Below are positions 13,694 through 33,277 of a DNA stretch of 64,000 bases, piece by piece (position 1 is the first letter of the stretch; each line of letters starts with the position of its first letter). Below the pieces are notes generated by a model. The model saw nothing but the letters and a program-made list of their open reading frames with translations, was not told the DNA's origin and searched no databases. The translations under genes and the position numbers were made by a program. The stretch is from Peristeroidobacter soli. Lineage in GTDB: Bacteria > Pseudomonadota > Gammaproteobacteria > Steroidobacterales > Steroidobacteraceae. Location of the stretch: positions 124,001 to 188,000 of the forward strand of contig NZ_RYEV01000009.1 of assembly GCF_004138485.1 (NCBI RefSeq), read 5' to 3'.

Positions 13694-13723
13694 TAAAGAG
13701 GGTCGGCGACGAAATACCCGTAA
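13694..13723 (-). promoter_or_regulatory. ECF-sigma promoter of the second TonB receptor (TTRCGG-N17-CTCTTTA)
   Basis: Minus strand: TTACGG (13723-13718), 17 bases, CTCTTTA (13700-13694), ending 70 bp before the receptor ATG. It is one of five copies with identical spacing in the window (also 15685-15714, 17040-17069, 33184-33213, 33248-33277), each before a gene or operon start. Confidence 0.85.
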
Positions 13724-13917
13724 CATCCTTGCACGAGCGACGATGAGGTGAGATTCGATTCATCGATGAGGCGGTCATGACATCGAAGCCTCAGCTCCCC
13801 CGAAGAACTCTCGCGCGCCATGCGCGCTTTGTTGTCGACTCAACTACGATTCAGAGCAGTTTCCCGCCCGGCCTTCGACTCGAGGCTTCACCGCAGCGCC
13901 GTTTTGGGCGGAGCGGT

Positions 13918-14979
13918 TTACTTCTCACGCGAGACGCGCACCGTCGAGTCGCTGTCGCGCTCCATGCGCACATCGAAGGACGTCTCGATGGCGTCGAACA
14001 TCGCCTCGCTATCGCCGATCTTGAAGCGGCCGCTGATGCGCAGGTCGCGCAGCTCGGCATCCTCGATGACGATGTGGTTGGGGATGTAGCGATTGATCTC
14101 GGCGATCACATCCTCCAGCCGCTCGTTGCTGAACACGAGCTGGCCGTCGAGCCAGCCGAGTTGACGCTTCATTTCCTCGGCAGTCAACTTTCGGGGCGGC
14201 GCCGGAGTGCCGTCGTCGAGCTGGCTGACTGTGGCGCCCTCGCCTTTGCTCACGAGCAGCACTTCGTCCCGGGCACGGCCATCCGCATCGGCGGACGTCC
14301 GCTCCGCCCGCTGAGCTTCGCCCTTGGACTGACGCTTGGACAACTGCACCTTGCCGTCGGTGACGGTGACAACCACGTTCTGCGAGGTCAGCCGGACGAC
14401 GAACTCGGTGCCGAGGGCTTTGACCTGGCTGTTGTCTGCGTAGACGATGAAGGGCCTTTGCGGTTCGTGCGCCACATCGAACTTGGCCTCCCCCTGCAAC
14501 AATCGAACGATGCGCGCTGCATCGGAGTACTCGACCTTGACGATGCTGTTGGTGTTCAGATGCACCACCGAACCGTCACCGAGCCGATTCGATTTCTGCA
14601 TGCCAACGCCAGTCAGCAAAGTGGCCTCGACCACCCGCGGCGCCGATTGCCAGAACCAGCCGAGACCCAGCGCGCACAGGCACACGGCAGCCAGCGCGAC
14701 CACGGCATACCGTCGCACGAATCCCGGTGTCACGACCGGTTCGGCGACCGCCTCGACGTTCGCCGTGAGCGCGTTCAGCACCGAATCCATCTCGCTCCAC
14801 ATGGAACAGTAGCTTCGGAGCGTCCGTCCGTGCTCGGGATCCTGGGCCAGCCAGTGCTTCAGATCGCTGCGTTCCTGTTCGGACAGAGTGCCGCGATCCA
14901 GTTTCGCCAGCCAGTTGCTAGCCTCGACTTCGCGCAGTTCGCGAGTGCGCAGTGCTACGAGCGGTGCACGATGTTTCAT
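13918..14979 (-). CDS. FecR-family anti-sigma / transmembrane signal transducer (second set)
   Basis: About 353 residues from the ATG at 14979, which overlaps the sigma stop (ATGA) and has GGGGA upstream. The N-terminal FecR segment has the usual DLKHWLAQDPEHGRTLRSY pattern. A membrane helix (YAVVALAAVCLCALGLGWFW) lies near residues 90-110. The periplasmic FecR domain (RLGDGSVVHLNTNSIVKVEY) and a C-terminal domain (ERLEDVIAEINRYIPNHIVI) follow. It should hold the sigma factor in check until the STN domain of the receptor at 10925-13624 signals. The receptor gene has its own promoter 195 bp downstream of this gene. Confidence 0.92.
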   Translation of the reverse strand: MKHRAPLVALRTRELREVEASNWLAKLDRGTLSEQERSDLKHWLAQDPEHGRTLRSYCSMWSEMDSVLNALTANVEAVAEPVVTPGFVRRYAVVALAAVCLCALGLGWFWQSAPRVVEATLLTGVGMQKSNRLGDGSVVHLNTNSIVKVEYSDAARIVRLLQGEAKFDVAHEPQRPFIVYADNSQVKALGTEFVVRLTSQNVVVTVTDGKVQLSKRQSKGEAQRAERTSADADGRARDEVLLVSKGEGATVSQLDDGTPAPPRKLTAEEMKRQLGWLDGQLVFSNERLEDVIAEINRYIPNHIVIEDAELRDLRISGRFKIGDSEAMFDAIETSFDVRMERDSDSTVRVSREK

Positions 14980-15551
14980 ACATCCCCGCCCTGTTCGCCA
15001 GTCTGTTGCAGCCCGCGAGCAGGACACTCCTCCGTTGAATCCTCGAACTCGTATCCTTGCGTGATCAGATGACGCCGGCATTCTCTCAGCCCGCTCGCGA
15101 TGTACTTCTCCACTGAGCTGACCGAGACTCCCATCTTCCTCGCGATCTCGTTCTGCGAGAAACCGCAGAATTTTCGTAACAGAATGGCACGACGCTTGTC
15201 CGCCGACAGCGTCAGCAGCGCTTCGCTGAATCTTTCCAGTTTCTGCGCGTCGTGCAACTGCTGATCGATGGGTACCGCATCGACATCCGCCTGGGACTCG
15301 TCGATCTCGGCGGAAATCTCCCGCGAGCGTTGCGAGAGTTTCTCCAGCACCAGATTCCGGGACACGACGAACAGATAGCCTTGCGGCGACTGGATGCGCT
15401 TCTTATCGTTCCCCTTCAGGACGCGCAGCAGCGTCTCCTGCAGAATGTCGTCGACGTCGGCGGGTCGGATCGACATTCGCAGTATCGAGCGGACCAGCCC
15501 ATTACGGCAGGCCAGGAACGCCTTGGTAATCGGATCGTCGTTTCTATTCAT
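14976..15551 (-). CDS. ECF RNA polymerase sigma factor, FecI type; proposed master of the catabolic regulon
   Basis: About 191 residues from the ATG at 15551. Region 2 covers about residues 15-80 (ADVDDILQETLLRVLKG, SPQGYLFVVSRNLVLEKL). Region 4 covers about 110-160, with the helix-turn-helix FSQNEIARKMGVSVSSVEKY. The stop overlaps the FecR start by four bases, giving strict coupling. A copy of TTACGG-N17-CTCTTTA lies 134 bp upstream (15685-15714), so the gene probably controls itself. The same sequence precedes the receptor and three catabolic operons, which makes this the likely sigma factor for all of them (inference). Confidence 0.93.
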   Translation of the reverse strand: MNRNDDPITKAFLACRNGLVRSILRMSIRPADVDDILQETLLRVLKGNDKKRIQSPQGYLFVVSRNLVLEKLSQRSREISAEIDESQADVDAVPIDQQLHDAQKLERFSEALLTLSADKRRAILLRKFCGFSQNEIARKMGVSVSSVEKYIASGLRECRRHLITQGYEFEDSTEECPARGLQQTGEQGGDV

Positions 15552-15684
15552 GTCGCAGCGGCCAGCATCGCGCCCCTCGCCGAACCGCCCTGGCCAATGT
15601 AACCACTTGAATCCAAGGCATTCTCCGATCTTGCGCCGCCGGATCGGCAGGCCCCCGGTCCCGGTCTCCGCCCGGCTCGCCATC

Positions 15685-15714
15685 TAAAGAGGGTTTGGAC
15701 GAAGAAATCCGTAA
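15685..15714 (-). promoter_or_regulatory. ECF-sigma promoter of the second sigma-fecR pair (TTRCGG-N17-CTCTTTA)
   Basis: Minus strand: TTACGG (15714-15709), 17 bases, CTCTTTA (15691-15685). It lies in the gap between the PrpF-like gene and the sigma ATG at 15551, giving a leader of about 130 bases. Identical boxes and spacing occur at four other start points. Confidence 0.85.
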
Positions 15715-15739
15715 GAGCGGTCAGCGACCGCCGGCGCTG

Positions 15740-16906
15740 TCAGCGTCGAAAATAGGCATCCCCCGCCATGAGCCGGCGGGCAGTCCGGCTGAAGCCCAGT
15801 TCCTCGAAGTGCACGAAGGGAAAGCTCGCGATGGCGCTGGCCCTCACCCTGGCTGCCGTTATCCCAGAGGGATGACCGATCAACAAGACCTCTGGCGACT
15901 CACGGGCGACGGAGTGGATCACCGAGCCCGGAATGCGCGAAGCCGCTGCCAGGCAGATCGAACCCGTGCCGGCGATGCTCTCGTGCAGGCGATCCATGAA
16001 GATCAGCCTCACCAGCACATCCATATCGGAGGCGAGAACCGCGGCGCCGGACAGAGAGAGATAATCGGCTGGTGGAGCCACCAGCCCGACGAACGGCACC
16101 GTCGGTGATAGCTCCGCCGCGCGCTGCCATTCATCGCAGAACCCAAGGAGAACCGCAGCCTTGCCACGCACTTCGCGCAGCAGGCTCAACAGCGGAACGT
16201 TGCGATTGAGGTCTGCCGACAGGACGCTGGTCTGCAGTCCCAGATCGTCTGCCCGCACCCAGACACACGGATTGGCGACATCGCATAGCGTGGCGACGAT
16301 GGCGCGGCCGTCCTCCAGCACGATGCGATCTGTCACGCTCCCGGTCGGCAAGAGCCGGCCGGTGCTGGAACCGATCGTGCCCACCCAGTTCATGCGAATC
16401 TCCGCGCCTTCCCCCGGCACTCCGGGCACACGAAAGCGCCCCCCGACCTGAGCTTTGCCGCCGACCGTCGGCACCTCCGCGATGATGATCTTCGAGGTGT
16501 TGGTGTTGTAGATGCGCACGCGGGTCGAGCCGGGCTGCACTTCGACCAGTCCCTCATCGAGCGCAAAGGGACCGACCCCGGCGCAGATGTTTCCACAGTT
16601 GGCATCGTAGGTAACGGACGCTCTCTCCAGCTCCACCTGGCCGAACGTGTAGTCGACATCGGCGTCCGCGCGCGTCGACGGCGCGATGATCGCGACTTTC
16701 GATGTGATGGGTCGCGAGCCGCCCAGGCCGTCGATCTGCAATACGTCCGGAGATCCCATGAGCTCGAGCAACAGTGCATCGCGCGCCGCGGCCGTCGACG
16801 GCAGATCGCGCGCATGAAAGAACAGCCCCTTGCTGGTTCCCGCTCGCATGATGACGCAGCGAACCGTGGCTTGCTCAACGCTCTTGCCAACTTCGATGGA
16901 TGACAT
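15740..16906 (-). CDS. PrpF-family isomerase / 4-oxalomesaconate tautomerase-like protein
   Basis: About 388 residues from the ATG at 16906 (an in-frame ATG at 16930 is possible). The family opening VRCVIMRAGTSKGLFF is unmistakable, followed by QIDGLGGSRPITSKVAII and the Cys-containing DANCGNICAGVGPFA. The second half has RMNWVGTIGSSTGRLLPTG. PrpF-type enzymes have a diaminopimelate-epimerase fold and move a double bond or isomerise 2-methylaconitate, oxalomesaconate or related unsaturated acids. The gene runs opposite to the aldehyde dehydrogenase operon. I found no copy of the TTRCGG/CTCTTTA promoter on its strand, so its own control is open. Confidence 0.85.
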   Translation of the reverse strand: MSSIEVGKSVEQATVRCVIMRAGTSKGLFFHARDLPSTAAARDALLLELMGSPDVLQIDGLGGSRPITSKVAIIAPSTRADADVDYTFGQVELERASVTYDANCGNICAGVGPFALDEGLVEVQPGSTRVRIYNTNTSKIIIAEVPTVGGKAQVGGRFRVPGVPGEGAEIRMNWVGTIGSSTGRLLPTGSVTDRIVLEDGRAIVATLCDVANPCVWVRADDLGLQTSVLSADLNRNVPLLSLLREVRGKAAVLLGFCDEWQRAAELSPTVPFVGLVAPPADYLSLSGAAVLASDMDVLVRLIFMDRLHESIAGTGSICLAAASRIPGSVIHSVARESPEVLLIGHPSGITAARVRASAIASFPFVHFEELGFSRTARRLMAGDAYFRR

Positions 16907-17039
16907 GGTGGTACCACAACCGATGGCCAAACCGGCGACGGATAGTTCCAGAACGTTTGGAAGTGAGCAATAGCAAATGCATCACGATCGCCCTGCCTGT
17001 GCGTCGGTAACGCGGCGTTGCGAATATTTGCTGACGTCG

Positions 17040-17069
17040 TTACGGAAATTGTTCGCCGCGCCCTCTTTA
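17040..17069 (+). promoter_or_regulatory. ECF-sigma promoter of the rightward catabolic operon (TTRCGG-N17-CTCTTTA)
   Basis: Plus strand: TTACGG (17040-17045), 17 bases, CTCTTTA (17063-17069), 57 bp before the aldehyde dehydrogenase ATG at 17127. It has the same boxes and spacer length as the promoters of the sigma and receptor genes, in the orientation of the downstream operon. Confidence 0.85.
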
Positions 17070-17126
17070 TGCCCGATGACAGGTATCGTCCTGCCGGATG
17101 GAAGCTGCGCCCAGGCAAGATAGAGA

Positions 17127-18551
17127 ATGAACAACCGACACGCGATCTATATCGACGGCAGGTGGCTGCAGATTCAGGCCCCATCGTTTTGCGTCAGCGA
17201 CGCCGCGACGGGCGAACCGATGACGAGCATCTGCCTCGCATCCGCGGAGCACGTGAACCTCGCGGTACGCTCGGCCCAGAAGGCACTGCCGATCTGGGCC
17301 GCCGCCACGCCGGAGCAACGCAGTCACGTACTGAATCAGATCGCGGACGGTCTCGAAGCCCGCGCCACCGAACTTGCTCACGTCATCGCCCGCGAAGTCG
17401 GAATGCCGCTACGTCTGTGCGAGATGATTCAAGTGGCAGCGCCCATTGCCGCGTGGCGATCCTATGCGGGCCTCGCCGCGCAGGCTCGTAACGAAAGGTC
17501 GATCGGTCACTCGCTCGTGATCGACGAGCCAGTGGGTGTCGTTGCCGCGATCACGCCTTGGAACTATCCGCTACACCAGATAACCGCCAAAGTCGCCGCC
17601 GCATTGGCCGCTGGAGCGACAGTCGTGCTGAAGCCTTCGGAGATCGCTCCCTCGAGCGCGCTGATATTGGCGGAAATCATCGATGGCTCCGACCTGCCCG
17701 CCGGCGCGTTCAACATGCTGACCGGACTCGGCAGCGAAGTCGGCACAGCGCTGGTCGAGCATCCGGACGTGACGATGGTGTCCTTCACCGGTTCGACCGA
17801 AACCGGCAAGCACGTCGCGGCGCTCGCGTCCCGCGGCATCAAACGCCTCTCGTTGGAGCTGGGCGGCAAATCGCCGGCCGTCGTCCTGGAAGGCGCCGAC
17901 CTTACGCAGGCCGTCAAATCCACCCTCGCCTCGTGTTTGCTGAACTCCGGCCAGACATGCAACGCACTGACACGGCTCATCGTCCCGGAGGCGCGGTTCG
18001 AAGCGGTCGCGCAGCTGCTGCGAGAATTGCTGCCGAAGTACATCGTCGGCGATCCGATGGAACGAACTACTCGCATGGGTCCGCTCGTCTCCGAACAGCA
18101 GAGGCGCAGAGTGACTGCGTTCGTCGACGACGCGATTCGTGCCGGCATTCCTGTCATCGCCAGAGGCAATCTTCCCGAGCAGCTGACCGGCGGATTCTTT
18201 TTCGCGCCCATTGTTTTCGGTCCGGCTCCCGAGCACTGCGCGCTGGTACAGCAGGAAATCTTCGGACCGGTACTGACAGTGCAGACTCACCAGGGTGTGG
18301 ACGACGCCGTGCGCTTGGCCAACGGCACGCCGTTCGGTCTCGCCGCGGCCGTGTGGGCCGACACCGATGAGACTGCAATCGCCGTCGCCCGTCGCATTCG
18401 CGCAGGACAGATAGATCTGAACGGTGCTCCGTTCAATCTTGCCGCGCCATTCGGCGGCTTCGGTGCATCGGGCCTCGGCCGCGAGAATGGCGAGGCCGGT
18501 CTCAGCGAATTCCTCGAAACAAAATCCTTGCAGAGAAAAGCGACCGCCTGA
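17127..18551 (+). CDS. NAD(P)-dependent aldehyde dehydrogenase
   Basis: 474 residues, full length for the superfamily. The start MNNRHAIYIDGRWLQ is typical. The N-site segment is TPWNYPLHQI, the cofactor helix region is GATVVLKPSEIAP with FTGSTETGKHV, the general base Glu is in LSLELGGKSPAVV, and the catalytic Cys is in NSGQTCNALTRLIV. It oxidises an aldehyde to a carboxylic acid, probably one arising from the imported substrate. It is the first gene of a six-gene rightward operon (17.1-23.9 kb) behind an ECF-sigma promoter. The true aldehyde is not deducible. Confidence 0.92.
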   Translation: MNNRHAIYIDGRWLQIQAPSFCVSDAATGEPMTSICLASAEHVNLAVRSAQKALPIWAAATPEQRSHVLNQIADGLEARATELAHVIAREVGMPLRLCEMIQVAAPIAAWRSYAGLAAQARNERSIGHSLVIDEPVGVVAAITPWNYPLHQITAKVAAALAAGATVVLKPSEIAPSSALILAEIIDGSDLPAGAFNMLTGLGSEVGTALVEHPDVTMVSFTGSTETGKHVAALASRGIKRLSLELGGKSPAVVLEGADLTQAVKSTLASCLLNSGQTCNALTRLIVPEARFEAVAQLLRELLPKYIVGDPMERTTRMGPLVSEQQRRRVTAFVDDAIRAGIPVIARGNLPEQLTGGFFFAPIVFGPAPEHCALVQQEIFGPVLTVQTHQGVDDAVRLANGTPFGLAAAVWADTDETAIAVARRIRAGQIDLNGAPFNLAAPFGGFGASGLGRENGEAGLSEFLETKSLQRKATA

Positions 18552-18600
18552 CTTCACGCCGCGGAATGACTGGCGACCGACTCCCAACATCAGGTGACGC

Positions 18601-19098
18601 TTGCGAACCGAGCCGATCGAGATCCTGAGCAGAAGAATCTTCCGCGCGTTCTCCGATGCGGTAGCACTGCATGATGGCCAGCGCCTCGCCCGGCTGTTCA
18701 CGGAGCAAGGCACCTATACCGATTGTTTCTATGGAACCGCCACGGGCCACGAGCAAATCGCGCGCCTCATCGATCGTGAGTTCTTCGGCACAGCGGACGA
18801 TTTTCGATGGACCTTCCATGACCCGGTCGGAAGCAGCGAGCTGCTGTACGCACGCTACGCGTTCTCGTACCGCTCGAAAGTTGCCACCGCGCCCGCGTCA
18901 CGTGTCGGATTCGAAGGTGTCGCGATCGTATCGCTACACGGCGAGCAGATCGCCTCCTACCGGGAGATCGCCAATACAGGGCCCATGCTCGCCTCGCTGG
19001 GCTACGCCTCGGATCACCTGCGGAAGATTCTGTTGCGAGAGAACCAGCGAGTATGGTCGCAGCCGCAGTTTCGGAGTCACACAGATGCCGGTGAGTGA
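18601..19098 (+). CDS. SnoaL-like / NTF2-fold protein
   Basis: 165 residues, apparently from a TTG at 18601 with AGGTGA upstream; there is no earlier in-frame ATG and the next Met is far inside. The pattern FSDAVALHDGQRLARLFTEQ, then FRWTFHDPVGSSELLYARYA and IASYREIANTG, fits the SnoaL-like NTF2 fold. This cone-shaped pocket is used by isomerases, dehydratases and cyclases of ring compounds, and also by many proteins of unknown role. It lies between the aldehyde dehydrogenase and the hydratase/dehydrogenase fusion and overlaps the latter by 14 bp, so it probably acts on an intermediate of the pathway. Confidence 0.7.
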   Translation: MRTEPIEILSRRIFRAFSDAVALHDGQRLARLFTEQGTYTDCFYGTATGHEQIARLIDREFFGTADDFRWTFHDPVGSSELLYARYAFSYRSKVATAPASRVGFEGVAIVSLHGEQIASYREIANTGPMLASLGYASDHLRKILLRENQRVWSQPQFRSHTDAGE

Positions 19099-21046
19099 AG
19101 GAACTGCCCTCGGGACGCAACTCGCCGCGCCGGCGCCCGAGACATCGTTCAGCAGCACCGTGGCTGCGCGCATCGATGCAAACATCGGGTTCATCTACAT
19201 CGACAACCCGCCGGTGAACGCGCTGTCTCACAGCGTGCGCTCCGGTTTGTCCGCGGCGGTCCGAACATTCTCCGATGCGCCCGGCGTTCAGGCGATCATA
19301 GTCATCGGCAAGGGACAAACCTTCCCGGCCGGGGCGGATATCCGCGAGTTCGGCCGGCCCATTGAAGAGCCCGCGCTCAATGCCGTCAATCTCAGCATCG
19401 AAGCGTGTCGCAAGCCCGTCATTGCCGCCATTCACGGCACAGCGCTGGGCGGCGGGCTGGAGATCGCGCTCGCCTGTCATTTCCGAATCGCTCTCGCCTC
19501 CGCCCGGCTGGGACTGCCCGAAGTGAAGCTGGGGGTCATCCCGGGTGCCGGCGGAACTCAGCGGTTGCCACGGCTCATCGGCATCGAGCAGGCCCTGCGG
19601 GCAATAGCGACCTCTCGCATCCTCGATGCCGCGGAGGCGCTGCAACTCGGACTGGTCGATGCGATCGTTGCCGACGATCTGCACGCTCACGCCATCCGCT
19701 TCGCCCAACAGGTCATCGCGGAAGGCCGCCCGCTCCGCCTGGTTCGCGACCTGCAAGACAAGCTCGCTCCAGCCAGTGCCGGGGTGTTCGACGAATTCGA
19801 GAGCAACTTGCCGGCGCGGCTGCGAAATCGCCTCGCCGCGACCCGAGCCATTCGCAGTGTGCGCAATGCCGCTGCATTACCCTTCGATGAGGGCTTGCGC
19901 AAAGAACGTGAGTACGTCGAAGAGTGCAAGGCCTCGCCGCAATCGGCTGCTCTGCAATACGTGTTCTTCGCCGAGCGGGCAGCATTCAAGTTCGATGGCT
20001 ACATTGCCGGCGCTCTCGCCGGACCCGAGCCGCTCGTGGGCATCGCCGGGGCCGGCGCGCTGCGCACGCCGCTCGCGGCTGCCCTGCTGATCGGCGGCTG
20101 TCGAGTGCTGCTGTTCGATCAAAACGCTCGTGCGCTGTCCGATGCGTCGAGCGCGATCGTCGAGCGCCTCGAGAGATTGTCATCCAAAGGCCGCATCGCT
20201 TCCCGACAAGAACTGCAGTCGCTCACCGCTGCGCTCGAAGTCACCAGCGAGGCCGCTTCGCTGCGACATTGCACCGCTGTCATCGAAGTGGAGCCGGATA
20301 TGCTTTCGAGCAAGTCCGCAATAGTCGGTGCATTGAGCGCCCTGGTTGGCGAGAAAACCGCGCTCATCACAACTACCGCGCTCCTGTCCGTGGATGAGAT
20401 CGCCGCCGCGAGCCGGCGCCCCGCGAACGTCGTCGGCATGCATTTCTTCATTCCAGCATCGACGATGCGCCAGGTGGAGATCGTGCGCACCGACAGGTCC
20501 AGCAACCTCGCGGCATCGATCGCCGTCGAGCTGAGCCGGCGGCTCGAAAAAATTCCCGTCGTGAGCCGCGACTGCGACGGTTTCGTAGGCGATCGAACCC
20601 TGCGCGCTTACTTGAAAGAAGCCATCGCGATTCTCGAGGAAGGCGTGCCGGCCGCGCACATCGACGCCGCGCTACGCGACTTCGGCATGGCCCACGGCCC
20701 ATTCGAGCTTTGTGACTTCATCGGCTTGGATCTGGCGCAGCGGATTCTGGACGGACGCAGCGGGCCTGGTGAGACCGGGACGAAGCTGATCGATCTGCAA
20801 CGCGCCGGAACGCCGGACGGCATGCCTGCGCATGCAGGCACATCCATCCCGAAGATCCTCGCAGCAGCCATCGTGGAGCGCTGCCTGCTCGCCGCGGCCG
20901 CCGAAGCGAAACGACTCGTGGCCGAAGGCATCGTGTCTCGCCCCAGCGATGTCGACATCGTCTGGGTCAACGGGCTCGGCTTTCCAGAGCATTGCGGCGG
21001 GCCGCTGTTCTGGGCCACCCAGACCACGGCCAGCGTCCAGCGCTGA
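19085..21046 (+). CDS. Enoyl-CoA hydratase / 3-hydroxyacyl-CoA dehydrogenase fusion (FadB/MFE-1 type)
   Basis: About 653 residues from the ATG at 19085. Residues about 30-220 are a crotonase domain with PAGADIREF for the oxyanion hole and both usual glutamates (GTALGGGLEIALA and LPEVKLGVIPGAGGT). From about 310 comes the dehydrogenase Rossmann domain, then two 3HCDH C-terminal domains (DCDGFVGDRTLRAYLKEAI; VNGLGFPEHCGGPLFW). The catalytic His is in GMHFFIPASTMRQVE. Oddly, the dinucleotide motif reads GAGALRTPLA where GAGTMGxGIA is normal: the third glycine is Arg. The protein should hydrate an enoyl-CoA and oxidise the 3-hydroxyacyl-CoA, but cofactor binding by the second half is in question. 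Confidence 0.88.
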   Translation: MPVSEGTALGTQLAAPAPETSFSSTVAARIDANIGFIYIDNPPVNALSHSVRSGLSAAVRTFSDAPGVQAIIVIGKGQTFPAGADIREFGRPIEEPALNAVNLSIEACRKPVIAAIHGTALGGGLEIALACHFRIALASARLGLPEVKLGVIPGAGGTQRLPRLIGIEQALRAIATSRILDAAEALQLGLVDAIVADDLHAHAIRFAQQVIAEGRPLRLVRDLQDKLAPASAGVFDEFESNLPARLRNRLAATRAIRSVRNAAALPFDEGLRKEREYVEECKASPQSAALQYVFFAERAAFKFDGYIAGALAGPEPLVGIAGAGALRTPLAAALLIGGCRVLLFDQNARALSDASSAIVERLERLSSKGRIASRQELQSLTAALEVTSEAASLRHCTAVIEVEPDMLSSKSAIVGALSALVGEKTALITTTALLSVDEIAAASRRPANVVGMHFFIPASTMRQVEIVRTDRSSNLAASIAVELSRRLEKIPVVSRDCDGFVGDRTLRAYLKEAIAILEEGVPAAHIDAALRDFGMAHGPFELCDFIGLDLAQRILDGRSGPGETGTKLIDLQRAGTPDGMPAHAGTSIPKILAAAIVERCLLAAAAEAKRLVAEGIVSRPSDVDIVWVNGLGFPEHCGGPLFWATQTTASVQR

Positions 21047-21080
21047 GCCGCAATGTTTTCGATCCGATCAGGAGACTCTC

Positions 21081-25278: not shown

Positions 25279-26661
25279 CTACGCCGCCCTCAGATTCGCA
25301 GGACGCCTGCTCGTCCAATCCGTGGCTCGCTGGTAGGCGTTTGCTATCCGATAGACGCCCCGCTCATCGAAGTAGTTGCCGACGATCTGCAAGGACAGCG
25401 GCAGGCCCGCGGAACTGAATCCTGCCGGCACGGCAATCGCCGGATGTCCGGTGACACTGAATGGATGACGACAATGTCTCGCCAACGCGCGAGTCTTCGC
25501 CGCGCTATCGCTCAGCGGATAGGCCGGGTCCAGATTGGTAGCCGTGATCGCCGCGTGCAGTCCGTCGAATGCTGCGTTGGTGGCTCTGGTCAAACGGGCT
25601 CGCCAGCGCTGCGCGTCGATATAGTCCGCCGCGGACACGGTCGCACCCGACATGATGCTGGTTCTGGCATGCTCACCGAGCTGCGCAAAACGCTGTGTCA
25701 GCAAGCCGCGAAAGATGGCATAAGCCTCGGAGAACAGGATCAGCGCGCAACAAGCGCTGAACTCTTCTCTCCGAGGTAGACGAATCTCGACGATCTCAGC
25801 CCCCAGCTTCTCCAGCAACGTCGCTGCCTGGTCGAGGGCCGTGACCTGTTCGGGATGAGCTGTCTCATCGCCCGCGTAGAAGTGACGTATGAGCCCGATT
25901 CTCAATCCCACCACACCGCGGTCGAGTGTCTCGATGTAGTTGGTGCGAGCTTTCGCGTTCGTCGCCGTCAGGCTCTGCAACACCAGAGCGTTGTCTCGTA
26001 CGGTTCTCGTCAGCACGCCGACGCAATCGAGACTGTGAGCCAAAGGAATGATGCCGTTGCAACTCAACAGGCCGCGCGTCGGCTTCATTCCAACGACACC
26101 GCAGTTGGCCGCTGGACTTCTGACCGAGCCCCCCGTGTCGGTGCCGATCGCGGCAGGCAACATGCCCGCGGCGACCGCGACCGCGCAGCCGCTGGAGGAA
26201 CCGCCCGCGAAATGATCGTCCGCCCAGGGATTGATCGGCACGGGCCACGGCAGATCGAAGGAAGGACCGCCAATCGACAGTTCGTGCAGGGCGAGCTTGC
26301 CCATCATGACCGATCCAGCATCGATGAGCCGGCGGGTCACCGCCGCATGTGCGTCCGGAATGTTGTTGACGATCGCGGCGGAATTGCCGGTCGTCGGCAT
26401 GCCGGCGTAGTCGATGACGTCCTTCAGGCCGTACGGAATGCCATGCATCGAACCGCGCCACTGACCCGCCATGATTGCAGCTTCAGCGGCTCGAGCATCG
26501 CTCAATGCCTGCTGCGGACTTTGCATCAGGAATGCGTGCAACCGACCGTCGACGGCGGCGGTGTGATCGATCAACGCCTGCGTGTATTCCACTGGCGAGA
26601 GCCTGCGCTGCCGTATCAGCGATCCCGCCGTGGCCAGCGGCATGAAAGGCAGCACGCTCAT
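25279..26661 (-). CDS. Amidase, amidase-signature family (GatA/AtzE-like)
   Basis: 460 residues. The Ser-cisSer-Lys triad is complete: Lys in HGIPYGLKDVIDYAG, cis-Ser in FAGGSSSGCAVAVAAG and the nucleophile Ser in GTDTGGSVRSPAANCG. These enzymes hydrolyse amides to acid and ammonia or amine. The start (ATG 26661) overlaps the stop of a 67-residue gene, an arrangement seen for amidases that need a small GatC/AtzG-like subunit. In this operon it probably cuts an amide exposed after ring opening by the neighbouring amidohydrolase. Confidence 0.92.
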   Translation of the reverse strand: MSVLPFMPLATAGSLIRQRRLSPVEYTQALIDHTAAVDGRLHAFLMQSPQQALSDARAAEAAIMAGQWRGSMHGIPYGLKDVIDYAGMPTTGNSAAIVNNIPDAHAAVTRRLIDAGSVMMGKLALHELSIGGPSFDLPWPVPINPWADDHFAGGSSSGCAVAVAAGMLPAAIGTDTGGSVRSPAANCGVVGMKPTRGLLSCNGIIPLAHSLDCVGVLTRTVRDNALVLQSLTATNAKARTNYIETLDRGVVGLRIGLIRHFYAGDETAHPEQVTALDQAATLLEKLGAEIVEIRLPRREEFSACCALILFSEAYAIFRGLLTQRFAQLGEHARTSIMSGATVSAADYIDAQRWRARLTRATNAAFDGLHAAITATNLDPAYPLSDSAAKTRALARHCRHPFSVTGHPAIAVPAGFSSAGLPLSLQIVGNYFDERGVYRIANAYQRATDWTSRRPANLRAA

Positions 26662-26861
26662 TCCGTCTGCTCCGGTTCGCCCGGCGACATCCAGAATGGC
26701 GCTTCATGCCATTGCAGATCGCGAGGCAAATGCGCGAGCAACGATCGGGTGGCAACGTATCGGCCGCCGATGGCCGTCACGATCCCGGCATCCGGGTCGA
26801 CGAATCCCGCATCCGTGGCCAACCGTCGATACAATTGCTGCTCGATGCGTTCGTCTTCCAT
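26658..26861 (-). CDS. Small protein upstream of amidase, possible AtzG/GatC-like subunit
   Basis: 67 residues from the ATG at 26861, with CAGG upstream; in-frame starts at 26882 (ATG) and 26888 (GTG) would add 7 or 9 residues. It is mostly helical (EQQLYRRLATDAG, VATRSLLAHLP) and ends with an acidic, Pro-containing tail (HEAPFWMSPGEPEQTE), much like the C-terminal tails of GatC and AtzG proteins. Those hold the linked amidase in an active shape. It overlaps the amidase by ATGA. The assignment rests on size, position and tail shape, not clear sequence identity. Confidence 0.6.
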   Translation of the reverse strand: MEDERIEQQLYRRLATDAGFVDPDAGIVTAIGGRYVATRSLLAHLPRDLQWHEAPFWMSPGEPEQTE

Positions 26862-26891
26862 TGGGATACCTGCTGACGCCATCCCCACGCG

Positions 26892-28331
26892 TCAGCGCCG
26901 ACCCGCCCGGATATGCTCCGGTATCGAGCGGTGCAGATACCTGCCGCCCGCGGCCGGGATGAATAGTTCACCGCGCTCCATCACGACCGCTCCCCTGAGC
27001 ACGGTGACGATGGGCCATGCATGGATCTCGTGACCTTCCCAGGGCGAGTACTGGGCCTGATACAAATCCTGCCTGGCGAGTGTGCCGCGCCGGTTCGGAT
27101 CGAGAATGACGATATCCGCGTCGCTGCCGGGCAGCAGCACGCCCTTGCGCGGATAGAGCCCCATGATCCTGGCTGCATCCGTCGCGACCAGATCGACGAA
27201 TCTTTCTAAAGAGATTCCTCGTCTCACCACCGCCTCGGTGTACATGACGGCGATGCGCGGCTCGACGCCGCTGAAACCGCCGACGGTGTCGACGATCTGC
27301 GCACCCGCAGTCTTCTGCTGCAGCGAGCAGCAGATGTCATCCGTCGCCAGCGTCTGAATCGTGCCGTCCGCCACGCCATCCCAAAGCGCATCCTGGTCCT
27401 GCTGGGATTTCAAAGATGGGTAGGTGTGATAGATCTGGCCATCGGGCCGCAGATAATCATCGGCAGTGAAGCGCAGATACTGTGGCAAGGTCTCGGCGTA
27501 AACCGGTAGCGACCTGGCTTGCGCCTCACGCACTGCCTGCACACCTGTGCTCGCCGAGACATGCATCATGTACAGCGCCGTGCCGGGGACATTCTCCGCC
27601 AGCCGCAACACCTGGCGAAAGCTCAAATCCTCCGAGAGCCGGCTATGCACTTGCGCGAGATGCTTGAAATGCCCCTGGCCCTGCGCCATGAGCTTGGCAG
27701 TCATGTGCATGACCAGCTCATCGTCTTCGGCGTGCACGACTCCCAAGCCGCCCGCTTTGGCGAGCACCTGGAAGATCTCCCACAGGTCGCCGGTGTCGAT
27801 CTTGGCCCCGCTCCACTGCGGCAGGATGTTCGTCGTGAACATTTTCACCGTCGGATACCCGGCTCGGATCGCCTCGGCGAGTTCATCCAGGGTCCGCTGC
27901 GACGGATCCGAATGCATCATCAGGTGATAAGCGTAGTCGCAGGGGCATTTGTTGGAAAAGTCGGCATCGCGGGCGCGGATGCAAGTCTCGATGCTGTCGG
28001 TCGCCGTCACGCGAGCGAAATCGATGAGCGTAGTCGTTCCGCCATGTAATGCCGCGCGGCCAACGTGATCGGTGCCCTGAGATCTCGGTCGTTCCGAGCC
28101 GCTGCTGTGACCAATGGGCCAGTACATGTGCACGTGAGGATCGATGCCGCCGGGCATGACGATCATTCCGGTGGCATCGATCCGCCGCTCCGCCTGGCAC
28201 TCCACGAGGGATCGCGGCGGAAAGATGCCCGCGATTCTCTCACCCGCGATGGCCACGTCTGCGATATTCGAACCGCTCGGCGTGACGACCTTGCCATTGG
28301 AGATGATCAGGCGATACATCGCGTGCTGCAT
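26892..28331 (-). CDS. Dihydropyrimidinase / hydantoinase-type amidohydrolase
   Basis: 479 residues from the ATG at 28331 (a second ATG at 28319 is possible). The metal-site residues of the cyclic amidohydrolases are seen in order: HVH in GGIDPHVHMYW, the Lys to be carboxylated in YPTVKMFTT, His in LGVVHAEDDE, His in LYMMHVSAS and Asp in LATDDICC. A C-terminal beta-sandwich part (SDADIVILDPNRRGTL) follows. Members open cyclic amides such as dihydrouracil, hydantoin or cyclic imides. It lies six bases after the CoA-transferase and before the small protein-amidase pair, pointing to stepwise hydrolysis of a cyclic amide or ureide. Confidence 0.88.
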   Translation of the reverse strand: MQHAMYRLIISNGKVVTPSGSNIADVAIAGERIAGIFPPRSLVECQAERRIDATGMIVMPGGIDPHVHMYWPIGHSSGSERPRSQGTDHVGRAALHGGTTTLIDFARVTATDSIETCIRARDADFSNKCPCDYAYHLMMHSDPSQRTLDELAEAIRAGYPTVKMFTTNILPQWSGAKIDTGDLWEIFQVLAKAGGLGVVHAEDDELVMHMTAKLMAQGQGHFKHLAQVHSRLSEDLSFRQVLRLAENVPGTALYMMHVSASTGVQAVREAQARSLPVYAETLPQYLRFTADDYLRPDGQIYHTYPSLKSQQDQDALWDGVADGTIQTLATDDICCSLQQKTAGAQIVDTVGGFSGVEPRIAVMYTEAVVRRGISLERFVDLVATDAARIMGLYPRKGVLLPGSDADIVILDPNRRGTLARQDLYQAQYSPWEGHEIHAWPIVTVLRGAVVMERGELFIPAAGGRYLHRSIPEHIRAGRR

Positions 28332-28336
28332 GACAT

Positions 28337-29593
28337 TCAGATGACTCCCTCGGCAGCGAGCCGGCTCAGTTCCTCGCGGTCCAGCTCCAACATCTCGCCG
28401 AAGATCGCGGTGTTGGATGCCCCGAGCGATTCGCTAGGAATGGCAGGCTCGCGCATGCTGCCGTGAAAGCGTAAGGGACTGCCCGGCAGCACGACTCTGC
28501 CGAGCTCCGGATGATCGATCCATTCGAGCATGCCGCGCTCGTGCATGTGCCGATCGTTGACCACCTCGGGCAACTCCCGCACCGGGCTACAGATGAACTT
28601 GTATTCAACGGAAAGCTCCGCGAGCTGTTTGCGACTCTTGGTTGCCGTCCATGCCGCGACGACAGCGTCGGTCTCGTCCATGTTGGCAACCCGCCGCGCG
28701 TTGTCCGAGAAGCGCGAGTCGGTGGCGAGATCCGGCCTGCCCATCGCATCGGTCAATCCCCGCCAATGACTCTCCAACTGGCAGATCAATGCGACGTGGC
28801 CGTCGGCGCAGGAATAAACATTGTAGGGCGCGACCGATAGGCCGCCGTGACGATTGCCGGTGCGCGCCGCGCCCTTGCCGCCACTGCTGTACAACATGCC
28901 GAGATTGGAAGCCAAAGTGGGAAACACGGCTTCGAGCATCGCCACCTCTACCAGCCGGCCTTGCCCACTGCGCTCCCGATCGAACAGCGCAGTCACCACG
29001 GCTCCGTAGAGATGCACGCCGCTGATGATGTCGGCGAATGCCACGCCGGATTTCAGCGGTCCACCGTCCGCGAAACCCGTGACGCTCATGGCGCCGCTCG
29101 CCGCTTGAATCGTCAGGTCCATCGCCAATTGCTCGCGATCCGGCCCGGACAGACCGAACCCGGTGCCCGAGGCATAGATCAGCCTCGGATTCATGGCCCG
29201 CAGTACCGGCCAACCCACACCGAGCCTGTCCAGCACGCCGGGCGCGAAATTTTCGATCAGCACGTCGGCCCGTCGCACCAGCCGGAGCAGCAGATCGCGG
29301 CCGCGTTCCGTCTTGAGATTGATCGTGACGCAGCGCTTGTTCGCGTTCAGCATACAAAACGGCAGCGATGCACCCCGCCCCACGGTGGAGCGACGACGAG
29401 CCGGCTCTCCGGCAGGTGGTTCGACCTTGATCACCGTCGCGCCGGCCTTCGCCATCAGGAACGTTGCATACGGTCCCAAATAGATCTGACCGAGATCCAC
29501 CACGACGACGCCATGCAGCGGCAGCGCGCGAGGCGGCCCGTCGCTCGTCGCACCCACGGACGTATCGTCAGAAGCAGTGTCGCTTCCACTCAT
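28337..29593 (-). CDS. Family III (CaiB/BaiF) CoA-transferase, first copy
   Basis: About 418 residues from the ATG at 29593, which overlaps the DUF35 stop. After an 18-residue acidic lead, the family start reads LHGVVVVDLGQIYLGPYATF, then AGATVIKVEPPAGEPAR, IENFAPGVLDRLG and YASGTGFGLSGP. The nucleophilic Asp is in LAMDLTIQAASGAM. These enzymes move CoA from one acyl-CoA to a free acid through an Asp-anhydride. It should activate an acid of the pathway, or pass CoA from product to substrate. A second, different copy is at 34665. Confidence 0.9.
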   Translation of the reverse strand: MSGSDTASDDTSVGATSDGPPRALPLHGVVVVDLGQIYLGPYATFLMAKAGATVIKVEPPAGEPARRRSTVGRGASLPFCMLNANKRCVTINLKTERGRDLLLRLVRRADVLIENFAPGVLDRLGVGWPVLRAMNPRLIYASGTGFGLSGPDREQLAMDLTIQAASGAMSVTGFADGGPLKSGVAFADIISGVHLYGAVVTALFDRERSGQGRLVEVAMLEAVFPTLASNLGMLYSSGGKGAARTGNRHGGLSVAPYNVYSCADGHVALICQLESHWRGLTDAMGRPDLATDSRFSDNARRVANMDETDAVVAAWTATKSRKQLAELSVEYKFICSPVRELPEVVNDRHMHERGMLEWIDHPELGRVVLPGSPLRFHGSMREPAIPSESLGASNTAIFGEMLELDREELSRLAAEGVI

Positions 29594-30012
29594 TTGTATC
29601 TTCCGTCCCGCGCAGTCGAAGGAGTGAACAGCGGCACGTCCACCGATCGTCGTCGGGTCACCTGCAAGCTGAGCTCCTGATCGATCCTCAGCTGCTCCGG
29701 ATCGTCGACGCCGACGATGTTGCTGATCAAACGCGGACCTTCCCGCAACTCGATCAGCCCGACGGTGTACGGAATCGAGTCCGCAAAGGCCGGCACGAAC
29801 GCGTGGTGATACACCACCCAGCTCACGAGCTTCGCGGCCCCACACGCGTCCAGCCGATCGATGCGATTCCCCAGACATCCCGGGCACTCGGTTCTCTCTG
29901 GAAGCCAGCAGTGCGCACAATCGCGGCAGCGCTGATAAGTGAGCTTGCCATCGCGTAGCGCGTGGTACGCCGCCACGTGCTCGGACTCGGGCCCTGCTGA
30001 ATCTGCTTGCAT
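29590..30012 (-). CDS. DUF35 OB-fold protein with zinc ribbon, thiolase partner
   Basis: 140 residues. The rubredoxin-like zinc ribbon is CRDCAHCWLPERTECPGC near residues 29-46, followed by an OB-fold (KLVSWVVYHHAFVPAF, YTVGLIEL, LISNIVGV). DUF35 proteins bind acyl-CoA and pair with SCP-2-type thiolases or aldolases, for example the ChsH2-Ltp2 system of steroid side-chain cleavage. The gene sits six bases after the thiolase-like gene, the usual arrangement for such pairs. Confidence 0.88.
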   Translation of the reverse strand: MQADSAGPESEHVAAYHALRDGKLTYQRCRDCAHCWLPERTECPGCLGNRIDRLDACGAAKLVSWVVYHHAFVPAFADSIPYTVGLIELREGPRLISNIVGVDDPEQLRIDQELSLQVTRRRSVDVPLFTPSTARDGRYK

Positions 30013-30017
30013 GATCT

Positions 30018-31145
30018 TCAGTTACCCAGAATCAACGTGGAGTGAGTGTGCATGACGCCCCCCTGGTTGCTGATCACGCAGGTCTTCGCGTTCGGCACTT
30101 GTGTAACGGCGTCGCCGCGCATCTGACGCACGCCTTCGATGATGAGCTGCATGCCCGGCATACCGGTTTCGGCCAGCAACCCGCCAGCGGTATTGATCGG
30201 CAGACGGCCGCCGACTTCCAGAGCGCCGTCCTCGACGAATCGGCCGCTCTGCCCCGGCTTGCAGAAGCCGTAATCTTCCAGCGTCATCAGCACGACGATC
30301 GAAAAGCAGTCGTAGAGTTGCGCGACGTCGATGTCGGCGGGCTTCAGCCCAGCCATCGCGAATGCGGTCGCCGCCGAGGATGACGCCATGGTCGAGGTGA
30401 GCCTCGGACGTTGCGCGATATCCAGCGACGTTTGTCCTTGTCCGAAGCCGAGAATGGGCACCGGCCGTTGCACTTTCAGCTCGCGAGCCCGCCTGGCGCT
30501 CATCACCACCACACTTGCGGCACCGTCGCTGACCAGCGCGCAGTCGTCCCGTCGCAATGGCGAGACGAGATAGTCACGCGCCAGGTACTCATCCAGCGTG
30601 ATCGGCTTGTTGCGTAGTTGGGCGTTGCTATTGGCGGCGGCGTTTCTGCGGCTGTTCACCACGACCGCGCCGAGATGCTCGGGTCGCGTGCCTAACTCGC
30701 TCATGTGCCGACGCGCGACCATCGCATACCCGGCTGGCACACCGCCCCAACCAAACAACGCGCCTTCGCCCCGGGCGCGACTGTAGACACTTCGATCGCC
30801 CGTCTTGGGATTGTCGGCGAACGTGACGACCGCGATCTCGCATTGACCATGCTCGATGGCCATCGCTGCATAGCCGATCAAGCTGGCGTTGGCCGCCCCG
30901 CCCTGATCCCACACGCCGCCCACTCTCGGGCTGATGCCCAGGGACTCCGCCAGCCTCTGTCCATATAGAAGTTCCGGAGCCGACGTCGGTCCTTTCACCA
31001 GCAAGGCATCGACGTCCGATTTACAGATATTTGCATCGTACAAGGCATTGCGAACCGCCTCGGCATGCAGGGAGTGCGTGGAGCGGCCCGGCAGCGATCC
31101 GTATTTGGTGTGACCGACACCGGCGATGACGTATTTACCGCGCAT
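30018..31145 (-). CDS. SCP-2-type thiolase-like protein, no classical nucleophilic Cys
   Basis: About 375 residues from the ATG at 31145, two bases after the crotonase stop. The start MRGKYVIAGVGHTKYG and the segments VDALLVKGP, DDCALVSDGAASVVVMS, LYDCFSIVVLMTLEDYGFC and VISNQGGVMHTHSTLILG are typical of SCP-x-type thiolases. Where classical thiolases have the acyl-accepting Cys (NxxCSSG), this has DQGGAANASLIG, so it cannot use the normal mechanism. With its DUF35 partner it resembles the Ltp2-type retro-aldolases, which cleave a beta-hydroxyacyl-CoA side chain. The C-C lyase role is inference. Confidence 0.87.
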   Translation of the reverse strand: MRGKYVIAGVGHTKYGSLPGRSTHSLHAEAVRNALYDANICKSDVDALLVKGPTSAPELLYGQRLAESLGISPRVGGVWDQGGAANASLIGYAAMAIEHGQCEIAVVTFADNPKTGDRSVYSRARGEGALFGWGGVPAGYAMVARRHMSELGTRPEHLGAVVVNSRRNAAANSNAQLRNKPITLDEYLARDYLVSPLRRDDCALVSDGAASVVVMSARRARELKVQRPVPILGFGQGQTSLDIAQRPRLTSTMASSSAATAFAMAGLKPADIDVAQLYDCFSIVVLMTLEDYGFCKPGQSGRFVEDGALEVGGRLPINTAGGLLAETGMPGMQLIIEGVRQMRGDAVTQVPNAKTCVISNQGGVMHTHSTLILGN

Positions 31146-31147
31146 GT

Positions 31148-31921
31148 TCAGGACGCCGTGAACTTCGGTTCGCGCTTTTCCTTGAACGCCGCCTGTCCTT
31201 CCTTTGCATCCTCGGTTTGCAGCAGCGTTCGACCGACCAGTTGCTCCATTCGCAGGCCTGCCGCCAGATCCATGTCGCGACTGCGAATCGCCAGCTCCTT
31301 GGTCGCCTGGACCGCGAGCGGCGCATTCTTGGCAATCCGCTCCGCGATCGCGCGCGCCTCGACCATGAGACTTTCTCGGCTGGTGACGCGATTGATCAAC
31401 CCCCATCGCAACGCTGTCTGCGCGTCGATTGCGTCTCCGGTAAGGAGCATTTCCATTGCAATCGCATGAGGCAACTGGTGGACCACCCGTTGCGTGCCGC
31501 CATTCGCTGCGATGACGCCACGCTTGACCTCGGCCAGGCTGAAGGTGGCGCTCGCGACGGCCAGCCGGATATCGGTGGCGAGCATCAAAGTAACGCCGCC
31601 GCCGATACAGAAGCCGTTGATGGCACTGATGACGGGCTTCCATACCTCCAGGCCGCGATTCAGCAACTGATCTTTCTGGGTCAGCCACTGCTCGGCCCAG
31701 TGAAAGTCGCGCGACAAGTAGGACTTGATGTCCGCACCGGCCGTGAACGACTTCTCACCCGCTCCGGTGATGATCGCCACGCGAATCTCCGGATCGTCGC
31801 GCACTCTCGTCCAGGCCTGCGACAACAGACGGTAGTGCTCCGCGTCCATCGCATTGAGGCGCTCGGGCCGGTTGATGGTGATGGTGGCAATATGCTGCGA
31901 GAGTTCGATGTCGATGGCCAT
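31148..31921 (-). CDS. Crotonase-superfamily protein (enoyl-CoA hydratase/isomerase)
   Basis: 257 residues. Family segments: ITINRPERLNAMDAEHYRLL, the oxyanion-hole run SFTAGADIKSYL, GFCIGGGVTLMLATDIRLA and LAEVKRGVIAANGGTQRVV. The first hydratase glutamate is replaced (GGGVT instead of GGGCE), while the second (LAEV) is kept. One acidic residue is typical of isomerases and some dehydratases of the superfamily. It lies three bases after the acyl-CoA dehydrogenase gene and probably acts on the enoyl-CoA made by it. Confidence 0.88.
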   Translation of the reverse strand: MAIDIELSQHIATITINRPERLNAMDAEHYRLLSQAWTRVRDDPEIRVAIITGAGEKSFTAGADIKSYLSRDFHWAEQWLTQKDQLLNRGLEVWKPVISAINGFCIGGGVTLMLATDIRLAVASATFSLAEVKRGVIAANGGTQRVVHQLPHAIAMEMLLTGDAIDAQTALRWGLINRVTSRESLMVEARAIAERIAKNAPLAVQATKELAIRSRDMDLAAGLRMEQLVGRTLLQTEDAKEGQAAFKEKREPKFTAS

Positions 31922-31924
31922 GGC

Positions 31925-33103
31925 TCACCGGTACTGGCTGATGAGGCTGCGGGCGACGACCATGCGTTGCACCTCAGAGGGACCCTCGCCGATGCGACGA
32001 ATACGCAGCTCTCGATACCATCGTTCCAGGGGCAGTTCCTCGGAAACACCGAGCGCACCGAAGATCTGCACACAGCGATCGATCACCCGTCCGGCCGTCT
32101 CGCTGGTGGTGAGCTTTGCGATCGACGCATCCACCCCCGGATCCTGACCAAGATCGGCCTTCCACGCAGCTTGATACGTAAGCAGCCTCGCGGCGCGAAT
32201 TTCTATTTCACTGTCGGCCAGCATCCACTGGATGGCCTGCTTGTCGGCGAGGTACGAACCGAACGTCTTGCGCTCGGTCGACCACTTGACCGCCATATCC
32301 AGCGCTGCCTGTGCGACCCCGAGCGTCGTGATCGAGTAGGGAATGCGCGTTTCCACCAGCCACTTCTTCGCGAGATTGAAGCCTTCGCCCTCCTCGCCCA
32401 GTCGATGCGCGACTGGAATCCGGACATCTTTGAAAGCCACCTCGCAGGGCGACCACGAGCGAATGACCGGAATCGGACGGACGGTCATGCCTTCCGGCCG
32501 GCCATCGACGATGAATGCGGTGATGCCACCGCGCGAGGTATCGTCACCGGTGCGTGCGAAGAGAATGCCCCAGTCCGCTGTGTCCGCCGCAGAGATCCAC
32601 ATCTTGCTGCCGTTCACCACGTAGTGGTCGCCATCGCGAACGGCGCGCGTACGAATCGAGCGCGCCGGGTCGGATCCTCCGGACGCCTCGCTGATAGCCA
32701 CATAGGCCTTCTTGCCCTGAGCCACCGAAGGAATCCCGAATCCTTCTATCTGTTCGCGCGATCCTTCCCAAATGACATTCGGCGGGTCTGCGCCGAAAGC
32801 ACCGCAACCGGCGCTGTACAAGCCCATCTTGCATTGGGCTGTTTGCTCGGCAACCACCGTTTGCGCGAGCAACCCAAGGCCCGCCCCTCCGTATTTGGCG
32901 GGCGTGCGGTAGCACCACAGCCCCATCTCGTCTTTCACTTTCTTCTGCAGGGGCGCCAGCTTTTCCGGCGGCAGCTTGTAGGCATCGTGCTCGACACCGT
33001 CCTCCACCGGCCGCACCTCGGTCGCCATGAACTTGCGGACCGTATCCCGCAGCAGCGCCAGCTCCTGCGGCAACTCCCATGCCCCCAGACTCACATCGTT
33101 CAT
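31925..33103 (-). CDS. Acyl-CoA dehydrogenase (ACAD10/11-like C-terminal type)
   Basis: About 392 residues from the ATG at 33103 (an in-frame start nine codons earlier is less likely). The flavin and substrate segments are clear: YVAISEASGGSDPARSIRT, YVVNGSKMWISAA, FKDVRIPVAHRLGEEGEGFN and, near the C-terminus, QIFGALGVSEELPLERWYR and RIGEGPSEVQRMV, the latter holding the region of the catalytic Glu. It introduces the 2,3-double bond into an acyl-CoA and passes electrons to ETF. It is the first gene of the ten-gene leftward operon, 81 bp behind the ECF-sigma promoter at 33184-33213. Confidence 0.92.
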   Translation of the reverse strand: MNDVSLGAWELPQELALLRDTVRKFMATEVRPVEDGVEHDAYKLPPEKLAPLQKKVKDEMGLWCYRTPAKYGGAGLGLLAQTVVAEQTAQCKMGLYSAGCGAFGADPPNVIWEGSREQIEGFGIPSVAQGKKAYVAISEASGGSDPARSIRTRAVRDGDHYVVNGSKMWISAADTADWGILFARTGDDTSRGGITAFIVDGRPEGMTVRPIPVIRSWSPCEVAFKDVRIPVAHRLGEEGEGFNLAKKWLVETRIPYSITTLGVAQAALDMAVKWSTERKTFGSYLADKQAIQWMLADSEIEIRAARLLTYQAAWKADLGQDPGVDASIAKLTTSETAGRVIDRCVQIFGALGVSEELPLERWYRELRIRRIGEGPSEVQRMVVARSLISQYR

Positions 33104-33183
33104 AGATAACTCTCGATCCACCTTGCGCAATGTTTTTTATGGCGGCTCGTCCAGCGAGCAGCCGCGACACTCTGTGACGCTCT

Positions 33184-33213
33184 TAAAGAGTGTCGTCGCT
33201 CGAGAATCCGCAA
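33184..33213 (-). promoter_or_regulatory. ECF-sigma promoter of the leftward ten-gene operon (TTRCGG-N17-CTCTTTA)
   Basis: Minus strand: TTGCGG (33213-33208), 17 bases, CTCTTTA (33190-33184), ending 81 bp before the acyl-CoA dehydrogenase ATG. The -35 box differs by one base from the other four copies. It is back to back with the promoter at 33248-33277, which creates the inverted repeat ACACTCTTTA/TAAAGAGTGT seen here. Confidence 0.8.
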
Positions 33214-33247
33214 AGCGCCCCGGCTCGATCGGCCACCGCCCCACCGA

Positions 33248-33277
33248 TTACGGCTCTCGACCGGCAAACACTCTTTA
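33248..33277 (+). promoter_or_regulatory. ECF-sigma promoter of the MFS / CoA-transferase pair (TTRCGG-N17-CTCTTTA)
   Basis: Plus strand: TTACGG (33248-33253), 17 bases, CTCTTTA (33271-33277), 58 bp before the permease ATG at 33336. It shares boxes and spacing with four other start points and is divergent from the copy at 33184-33213, 35 bp away. Confidence 0.85.

Follow-up and report, generated by a model that had tools for sequence, protein, structure and literature searches.

The locus and its five sites

The window examined here (a whole stretch of 64 kb from Peristeroidobacter soli, to which all positions refer unless another locus is named) carries genes for Fec-type cell-surface signalling, a cluster of coenzyme A (CoA)-dependent catabolic genes, and five copies of one two-box motif, TTRCGG-N17-CTCTTTA, which is predicted to be the promoter of the local sigma factor. 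The signalling genes lie on the reverse strand. One encodes a TonB-dependent receptor of 899 amino acids (10925–13624), in which Pfam recognizes an STN signalling domain, a plug, and a barrel; the STN domain scored 31.2 bits, over the cut-off, in one scan and 26.6 bits, under the cut-off of 28.4, in another. The others encode a FecR-type sigma regulator with DUF4880, FecR, and FecR_C domains (13918–14979; Pfam) and an extracytoplasmic function (ECF) sigma factor of 191 amino acids from the assigned start (14976–15551), for which the ECF regions 2 and 4 were found by Pfam.

The window contains exactly five copies of the motif; nowhere else in it is there a match with two mismatches or fewer. 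On the reverse strand, the predicted promoters are those of the receptor gene (13694–13723, with TTACGG as the first box; 70 bp to the ATG at 13624), of the sigma–fecR unit (15685–15714; 134 bp to the ATG at 15551), and of a leftward operon of ten open reading frames (ORFs) beginning with an acyl-CoA dehydrogenase gene (33184–33213; 81 bp to the ATG at 33103). On the forward strand, they are those of a six-gene rightward operon beginning with an aldehyde dehydrogenase gene (17040–17069; 58 bp to the ATG at 17127) and of a permease/CoA-transferase pair (33248–33277; 59 bp to the ATG at 33336). All five are exact matches and intergenic, and each is directed at a start codon 58–134 bp away (the distance between the end of the second box and the assigned start). 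The original prediction, which had been made from the letters of the window, had placed five correctly oriented sites with an exact 17-base spacing at 57–135 bp from a start codon; all of them are present letter for letter on the expected strands.

The occurrence of the motif in the whole genome (9,374,132 bases, or 9.37 Mb, in 17 contigs) was then examined. The same five exact sites were found, all inside the window, while the pattern read backward gave none. From the base composition of the window, 0.0017 exact matches are expected per 64 kb and 0.25 per genome, and 300 dinucleotide shuffles of the window gave no exact match. A chance origin of the five sites is thus rejected, and the equally frequent matches across the genome that had been named beforehand as grounds for giving up the idea are excluded. 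When one mismatch was allowed, five further places (L006–L010) appeared in the genome, versus 15 for the backward control. A wider regulon based on them was rejected: four of the five lie inside predicted ORFs, including L010, which matches the widened box TTRYGG, and the remaining one, L007, has no co-directional ORF after it. Duplication of one site was also rejected because the spacers (pairwise 18–53% identical, mean 37%) and the 80 flanking bases (27% on average) differ, as had been claimed for the spacers.

Genes behind the sites

The three catabolic sites are followed by 6, 10, and 2 ORFs, 18 in all, and each operon would form one transcript, judging from the tight gene spacing. The original prediction had put some 19 metabolic genes under the sigma factor; the three catabolic units do lie behind sites, but the count is 18 ORFs, two of which have no Pfam match. 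In the rightward operon, the aldehyde dehydrogenase gene (17127–18551) is followed by genes for a SnoaL-like protein (18601–19098; Pfam), a FadJ-like enoyl-CoA hydratase/3-hydroxyacyl-CoA dehydrogenase (18671–21046 as listed; the domain begins at residue 168, and the true start is probably near 19100–19170), an enoyl-CoA hydratase (20832–21890 as listed; domain from about residue 90–101, start probably after 21046), a beta-keto acid cleavage enzyme (BKACE; 21887–22783), and an M24-family protein (22276–23919 as listed; domain from about residue 187, start probably near 22780–22830). All of these are on the forward strand.

The leftward operon, on the reverse strand, begins with the genes for the acyl-CoA dehydrogenase (31925–33103), an enoyl-CoA hydratase (31148–31921), and a thiolase (30018–31688 as listed; match from about residue 181, start probably near 31150). 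They are followed by genes for a ChsH2-type Zn-ribbon/OB-fold thiolase partner (29590–30012; Pfam), a class III CoA-transferase (28337–29920 as listed; domain from residue 135), a hydantoinase/dihydropyrimidinase-like amidohydrolase (26892–28331), an amidase (25279–26661), and a CobW-type GTPase (23956–24957). Two small ORFs of 76 (26658–26888) and 107 (24954–25277) amino acids, lying before and after the amidase gene, respectively, matched nothing in Pfam (E 0.01) or NCBIfam. The forward pair consists of the genes for an MFS permease (33336–34640) and another class III CoA-transferase (34665–35906).

Two neighbouring genes carry no site. The gene for a PrpF-like isomerase/tautomerase (15740–16906, reverse strand) lies between the sigma gene and the rightward operon, and no site was found before it at the 17-nt spacing with up to four mismatches; it is therefore probably outside the regulon. 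Two four-mismatch matches at spacings of 16 and 19 were dismissed. An HMG-CoA-lyase-like gene (35910–36833; 336 bits, cut-off 246) is convergent with the CoA-transferase gene of the pair and possibly belongs to the same pathway.

Conservation of the sites beside relatives of the sigma factor

Homologues of the sigma factor were collected from a set of genomes stated to cover 84,980 species with a single genome each; the candidates were picked by short peptide patterns, by which relatives can be missed. The 57 homologues comprise 22 near ones (loci L051–L072, 45–56% identity) and 35 far ones (L073–L107, at most 37%). The two groups differ: exact matches to TTRYGG-N17-CTCTTTA number 53 across the 406,174 bases of the near loci, where the reversed control gave none, and 0 across the 598,909 bases of the far loci.

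Three features were found among the near loci, 18 of which have at least one exact site. One is the recurrence of the positions: 16 of the 22 have a site 20–250 bp ahead of the sigma match, 16 have one 1.3–2.3 kb past the sigma start, where fecR ends, and 13 have a divergent one within 600 bp upstream. Another is the orientation. None of the 53 sites is inside an ORF, and for 49 of them the start of a co-directional, mechanically called ORF is at most 300 bp away (an overlap of up to 60 bp was allowed); an opposite-direction ORF start passes the same test for 17 sites, as expected where units diverge. The last feature concerns the two final positions of TTRYGG-N-TT, which played no part in the search: among the 49 distinct sites of the relatives, T was counted there 49 and 47 times, respectively.

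Variant sites were also seen. L066, which has no exact site, carries two copies of a variant ending in CTCTTAC, one before the sigma gene and another before the receptor gene. Before the receptor genes of L063 (position 11672 of that locus) and L067 (position 11665), CTCTTTA is kept at the usual distance, the first box is TTACTC, and the region-4 helix of the sigma factor differs as well; this may possibly be a co-evolved variant. The helix differs in the motif-free L063, L067, and L068, but also in the motif-bearing L051, and a co-evolution with the first box is only suggested.

Genes near the sites in the relatives

In tblastn searches, the sigma factor and FecR (34–47% identity) found matches in all 22 near loci. 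The enzymes of the window found none there except for the aldehyde dehydrogenase (about 30%, in 7 of the 22) and the MFS permease (32%, in L066), which were taken as general family matches; the window receptor gave weak matches, and none in some of the loci. Other nutrient genes were found instead. A gene for a PutP-family symporter (722 bits, cut-off 515.5) follows the divergent site of L052 and of L059. The genes preceded by exact sites in L070 include those for a sulfatase, a protein of the Pfam Beta-lactamase family, and a sugar transporter, and a GH43 gene of that locus has a site with two mismatches before it. The cluster in L064 comprises GH97 and fucosidase genes, none of which is directly preceded by a site. 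The pattern is thus also present in distant marine bacteria, ahead of other nutrient genes. Because most of the near loci keep the sites and carry different nutrient genes, the sigma–FecR pair and the promoter code look like a conserved switch, the controlled genes of which have been exchanged among relatives.

Distribution in the family, the class, and plasmids

Among 200 genomes of the home family, the exact pattern was found in ten including the home genome, and the other nine hold ten single or double sites; since the reversed control gave 24 matches, those outside the home genome are background. Homologues of the sigma factor (E 1e-10; at most 16 candidates scored per genome) were present in 87 of the 200, the best-scoring one outside the home genome being 38% identical. 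This was taken, without a tree, as a sign that the sigma factor is rare in its home family and was possibly acquired. A sample of the phylum (398 genomes) contained one other close relative, in genome G866; both sites of its locus have the same sequence as those of L055, and it thus adds nothing independent. In a class-wide scan with the narrower form TTRYGGRTT, 6 of 369 genomes matched, namely the home genome with 2 of its 5 sites and five genomes with one site each; the reversed control gave 9 matches, so this form outside sigma-bearing loci is also background.

For the amidohydrolase, there was no other match at E 1e-100 in the 369 class genomes. On plasmids, 45 records matched it at E 1e-60, all below 60% identity, and the best among those listed (40.8%) is on an Arthrobacter plasmid, with CoA-transferase and amidase homologues in its vicinity. 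For the receptor, two more family matches were obtained at E 1e-100 among 150 genomes (34 and 36%) and, on plasmids, eight sphingomonad records at about 30%; the one of the latter that was inspected (H1) showed no STN domain by eye and was not used.

The receptor linker and other surface-signalling genes

Between the STN domain and the plug, the window receptor has a second signal-peptide-like stretch at residues 111–140, or, taken more widely, 111–147 (13184–13294). The N-terminal signal region of a shorter receptor of the same family (L110), which has no room for an STN domain, aligns to this stretch, and similar stretches are visible in the receptors of L051, L063, L066, L067, and L068. An ad hoc score, built after the stretches had been seen, combined an in-frame start codon and a signal-peptide-like sequence with a Shine-Dalgarno match of at least 4. 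The linkers of L051, L066, L067, and L068 scored on both features, as did that of L072, which is more weakly hydrophobic. That of L063, whose n-region has no basic residue, was not picked; those of L069 and L167 passed the peptide part with weaker Shine-Dalgarno scores, and the internal start of the window receptor has a Shine-Dalgarno score of 0. As background, 1680 in-frame start codons located further downstream were scored, and 3 of them showed both features. The home genome has 90 STN hits; of the 69 other STN-receptor loci that were read, L149 alone looked similar by eye, and it was not picked by the score.

The stretch could be an internal start that gives a short, non-signalling receptor, or a relic of the grafting of an STN domain; the weak Shine-Dalgarno case in the window itself counts against the former. 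One may go further and suppose that the sigma–FecR clade with its fixed code is a plug-in catabolic switch re-coupled to unrelated pathways, and that in part of the clade the receptor gene yields two products, one long and signalling, the other short, non-signalling, and equipped with its own start inside the gene and its own signal peptide. We regard this extended proposal as rather doubtful. If it were true, such a dual-product gene would set both the uptake capacity and the signal strength.

Further surface-signalling genes were observed. A second complete set of ECF sigma, FecR, and STN-receptor genes lies at 4032–8442, where nothing matches the promoter code even with two mismatches allowed; genes for a metallo-beta-lactamase-fold protein, a beta-lactamase-family protein, an M19 peptidase, and an MFS protein stand beside it. 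At 52819–56082, a gene for a sensor histidine kinase with Reg_prop and Y_Y_Y domains lies between two TonB receptor genes. The 90 STN hits of the home genome (E up to 0.001) and its at least 16 ECF sigma homologues make up a large surface-signalling repertoire.

Proposed mechanism and its alternatives

We consider it quite likely that the locus is a self-contained cell-surface-signalling regulon, in which the receptor, the sigma–FecR pair, and about 18 catabolic ORFs would be controlled by the five predicted promoters. Judging from the domain architecture and known Fec biology, a substrate would bind the STN-bearing receptor, which would signal to FecR and FecR in turn to the sigma factor, so that sensing at the outer membrane would be the switch. 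RNA polymerase carrying the local sigma factor would then start at the five sites. Because a site lies before the sigma gene, positive autoregulation is predicted: the sigma factor would raise the receptor and the sigma–FecR pair in a positive feedback, and would turn on uptake across the inner membrane, activation with CoA, and a pathway resembling beta-oxidation. The pair and the code would form a conserved unit, coupled to other nutrient genes in relatives elsewhere. Our guess, based on the hydantoinase-like and amidase genes, the CoA-transferases, and the beta-oxidation-type enzymes, is that the substrate is a cyclic amide, opened and then degraded in a CoA-dependent manner.

Several points weigh against this regulon, which is predicted from sequence. 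The first box was widened from TTRCGG to TTRYGG after the relatives had been seen, and the TT extension, near-invariant in them, is carried by only 2 of the 5 window sites. Three of the 22 near loci (L063, L067, and L068) have no site within one mismatch. Moreover, the near loci are not independent: 15 of the 22 are titled Colwellia, Cognaticolwellia, or Thalassotalea, by which the counts overstate independence, and the sites of L060 and L061 are identical. Finally, at least 15 further ECF homologues of the sigma factor are encoded in the home genome, and cross-recognition is conceivable.

Among the alternatives, the sites might be real and yet induce the receptor and the sigma factor only, the catabolic operons being driven mainly by other promoters. 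The PrpF-like gene, which lies inside the cluster without a site, implies that the cluster has at least one other promoter; however, each of the three catabolic sites is an exact fit to the shared consensus, and a scan of those gaps from 17000 onward revealed no sigma-70-like promoter in the parts covered, by which this alternative becomes improbable. The motif might also be the promoter class of another ECF sigma factor or of several FecI-like ones, the local sigma gene being merely one target. The second set at 4032–8442 would provide such a factor, and of 154 initial candidates in the home genome 16 were scored, all of which matched ECF at E 1e-10. Nevertheless, the site is found nowhere else in the genome, and hence not before other ECF genes, and in other genomes it tracks the relatives of the local sigma factor and not the more distant homologues; we regard this possibility as very improbable. 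It is highly improbable that the two boxes serve an ordinary transcription factor as its operator: sequence matches alone cannot tell an operator from a promoter, and some sites stand back to back between divergent genes (the 17 of 53 noted above), but the two-box pattern is non-palindromic, has a fixed spacing, and is aimed at a gene in 49 of the 53 cases, and a consensus scan of 17000–36900 gave one sigma-70-like promoter versus a shuffle mean of 4.4.

The regulon commanded by the local sigma factor, as originally predicted, is thus favoured by the uniqueness and orientation of the sites and by their conservation beside relatives of the sigma factor but not beside distant homologues; the statement on FecI that had accompanied the prediction did not hold, as described below. 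The analysis predicts an entire local ECF regulon from sequence, and its promoter code has support from several genera. If the regulon is real, Fec-type surface signalling in Proteobacteria is not confined to transport operons but includes complete catabolic pathways, whose cargo is interchangeable. With the code, one could look for more pathways that are turned on by binding at the outer membrane, and for their substrates; it could also serve to build orthogonal inducible promoters.

Comparison with known systems

Fec-type surface signalling and the control of glycan loci by ECF/anti-sigma pairs in Bacteroides were known before. Our literature search, to which most subscription papers were out of reach, found no report of the TTRCGG-N17-CTCTTTA code or of a Fec-type switch for a CoA-dependent catabolic cluster. 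Signalling from the STN domain of the receptor through FecR to the sigma factor is described for FecA/FecR/FecI in the accessible parts of PMC9249621 and PMC11658791. The present locus resembles the E. coli FecI–FecR–FecA system in having an ECF sigma factor, a FecR with DUF4880 and FecR domains, an STN receptor, and a predicted sigma-specific promoter before the receptor gene. It differs in that the sigma gene carries its own site and that three catabolic operons are included; according to the accessible part of PMC9249621, E. coli FecI controls a single promoter, that before fecA, and fecIR is not autoregulated. The original statement that FecI-type factors normally control only a receptor and themselves is therefore inaccurate, and it also does not cover the Bacteroides pairs treated next. 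A Pfam scan of the cluster proteins found no iron-transport family; no Fur-box search was made.

In Bacteroides, as far as the available text of PMC3878776 describes, ECF/anti-sigma pairs with SusC-like proteins activate operons when glycans are present, and 26 such systems are associated with sugar-utilization genes in one genome. The order from an outer-membrane protein (SusC-like there) through an anti-sigma factor and an ECF sigma factor to nutrient operons is shared with the present locus, which, unlike those loci, combines a TonB receptor and a FecR partner with CoA-dependent enzymes for small molecules; no SusD family, and thus no SusC/SusD pair, was found among the cluster proteins scanned against Pfam. 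The same text calls ECF promoter prediction challenging without start-site data, whereas a promoter code was identified here.

Two other systems are comparable. PrhA–PrhI–PrhR of Ralstonia, homologues of FecA/I/R, likewise use Fec-type signalling for a non-iron purpose, but in the part of PMC1790865 at hand that system is linked to plant contact and not to a local catabolic gene cluster. In Arcobacter butzleri, ECF sigma factors control metabolic genes, as here; the regulons described in the accessible part of PMC3445524 overlap and concern transport, energy generation, and redox balance, in contrast to the one linked catabolic cluster predicted for the present locus.

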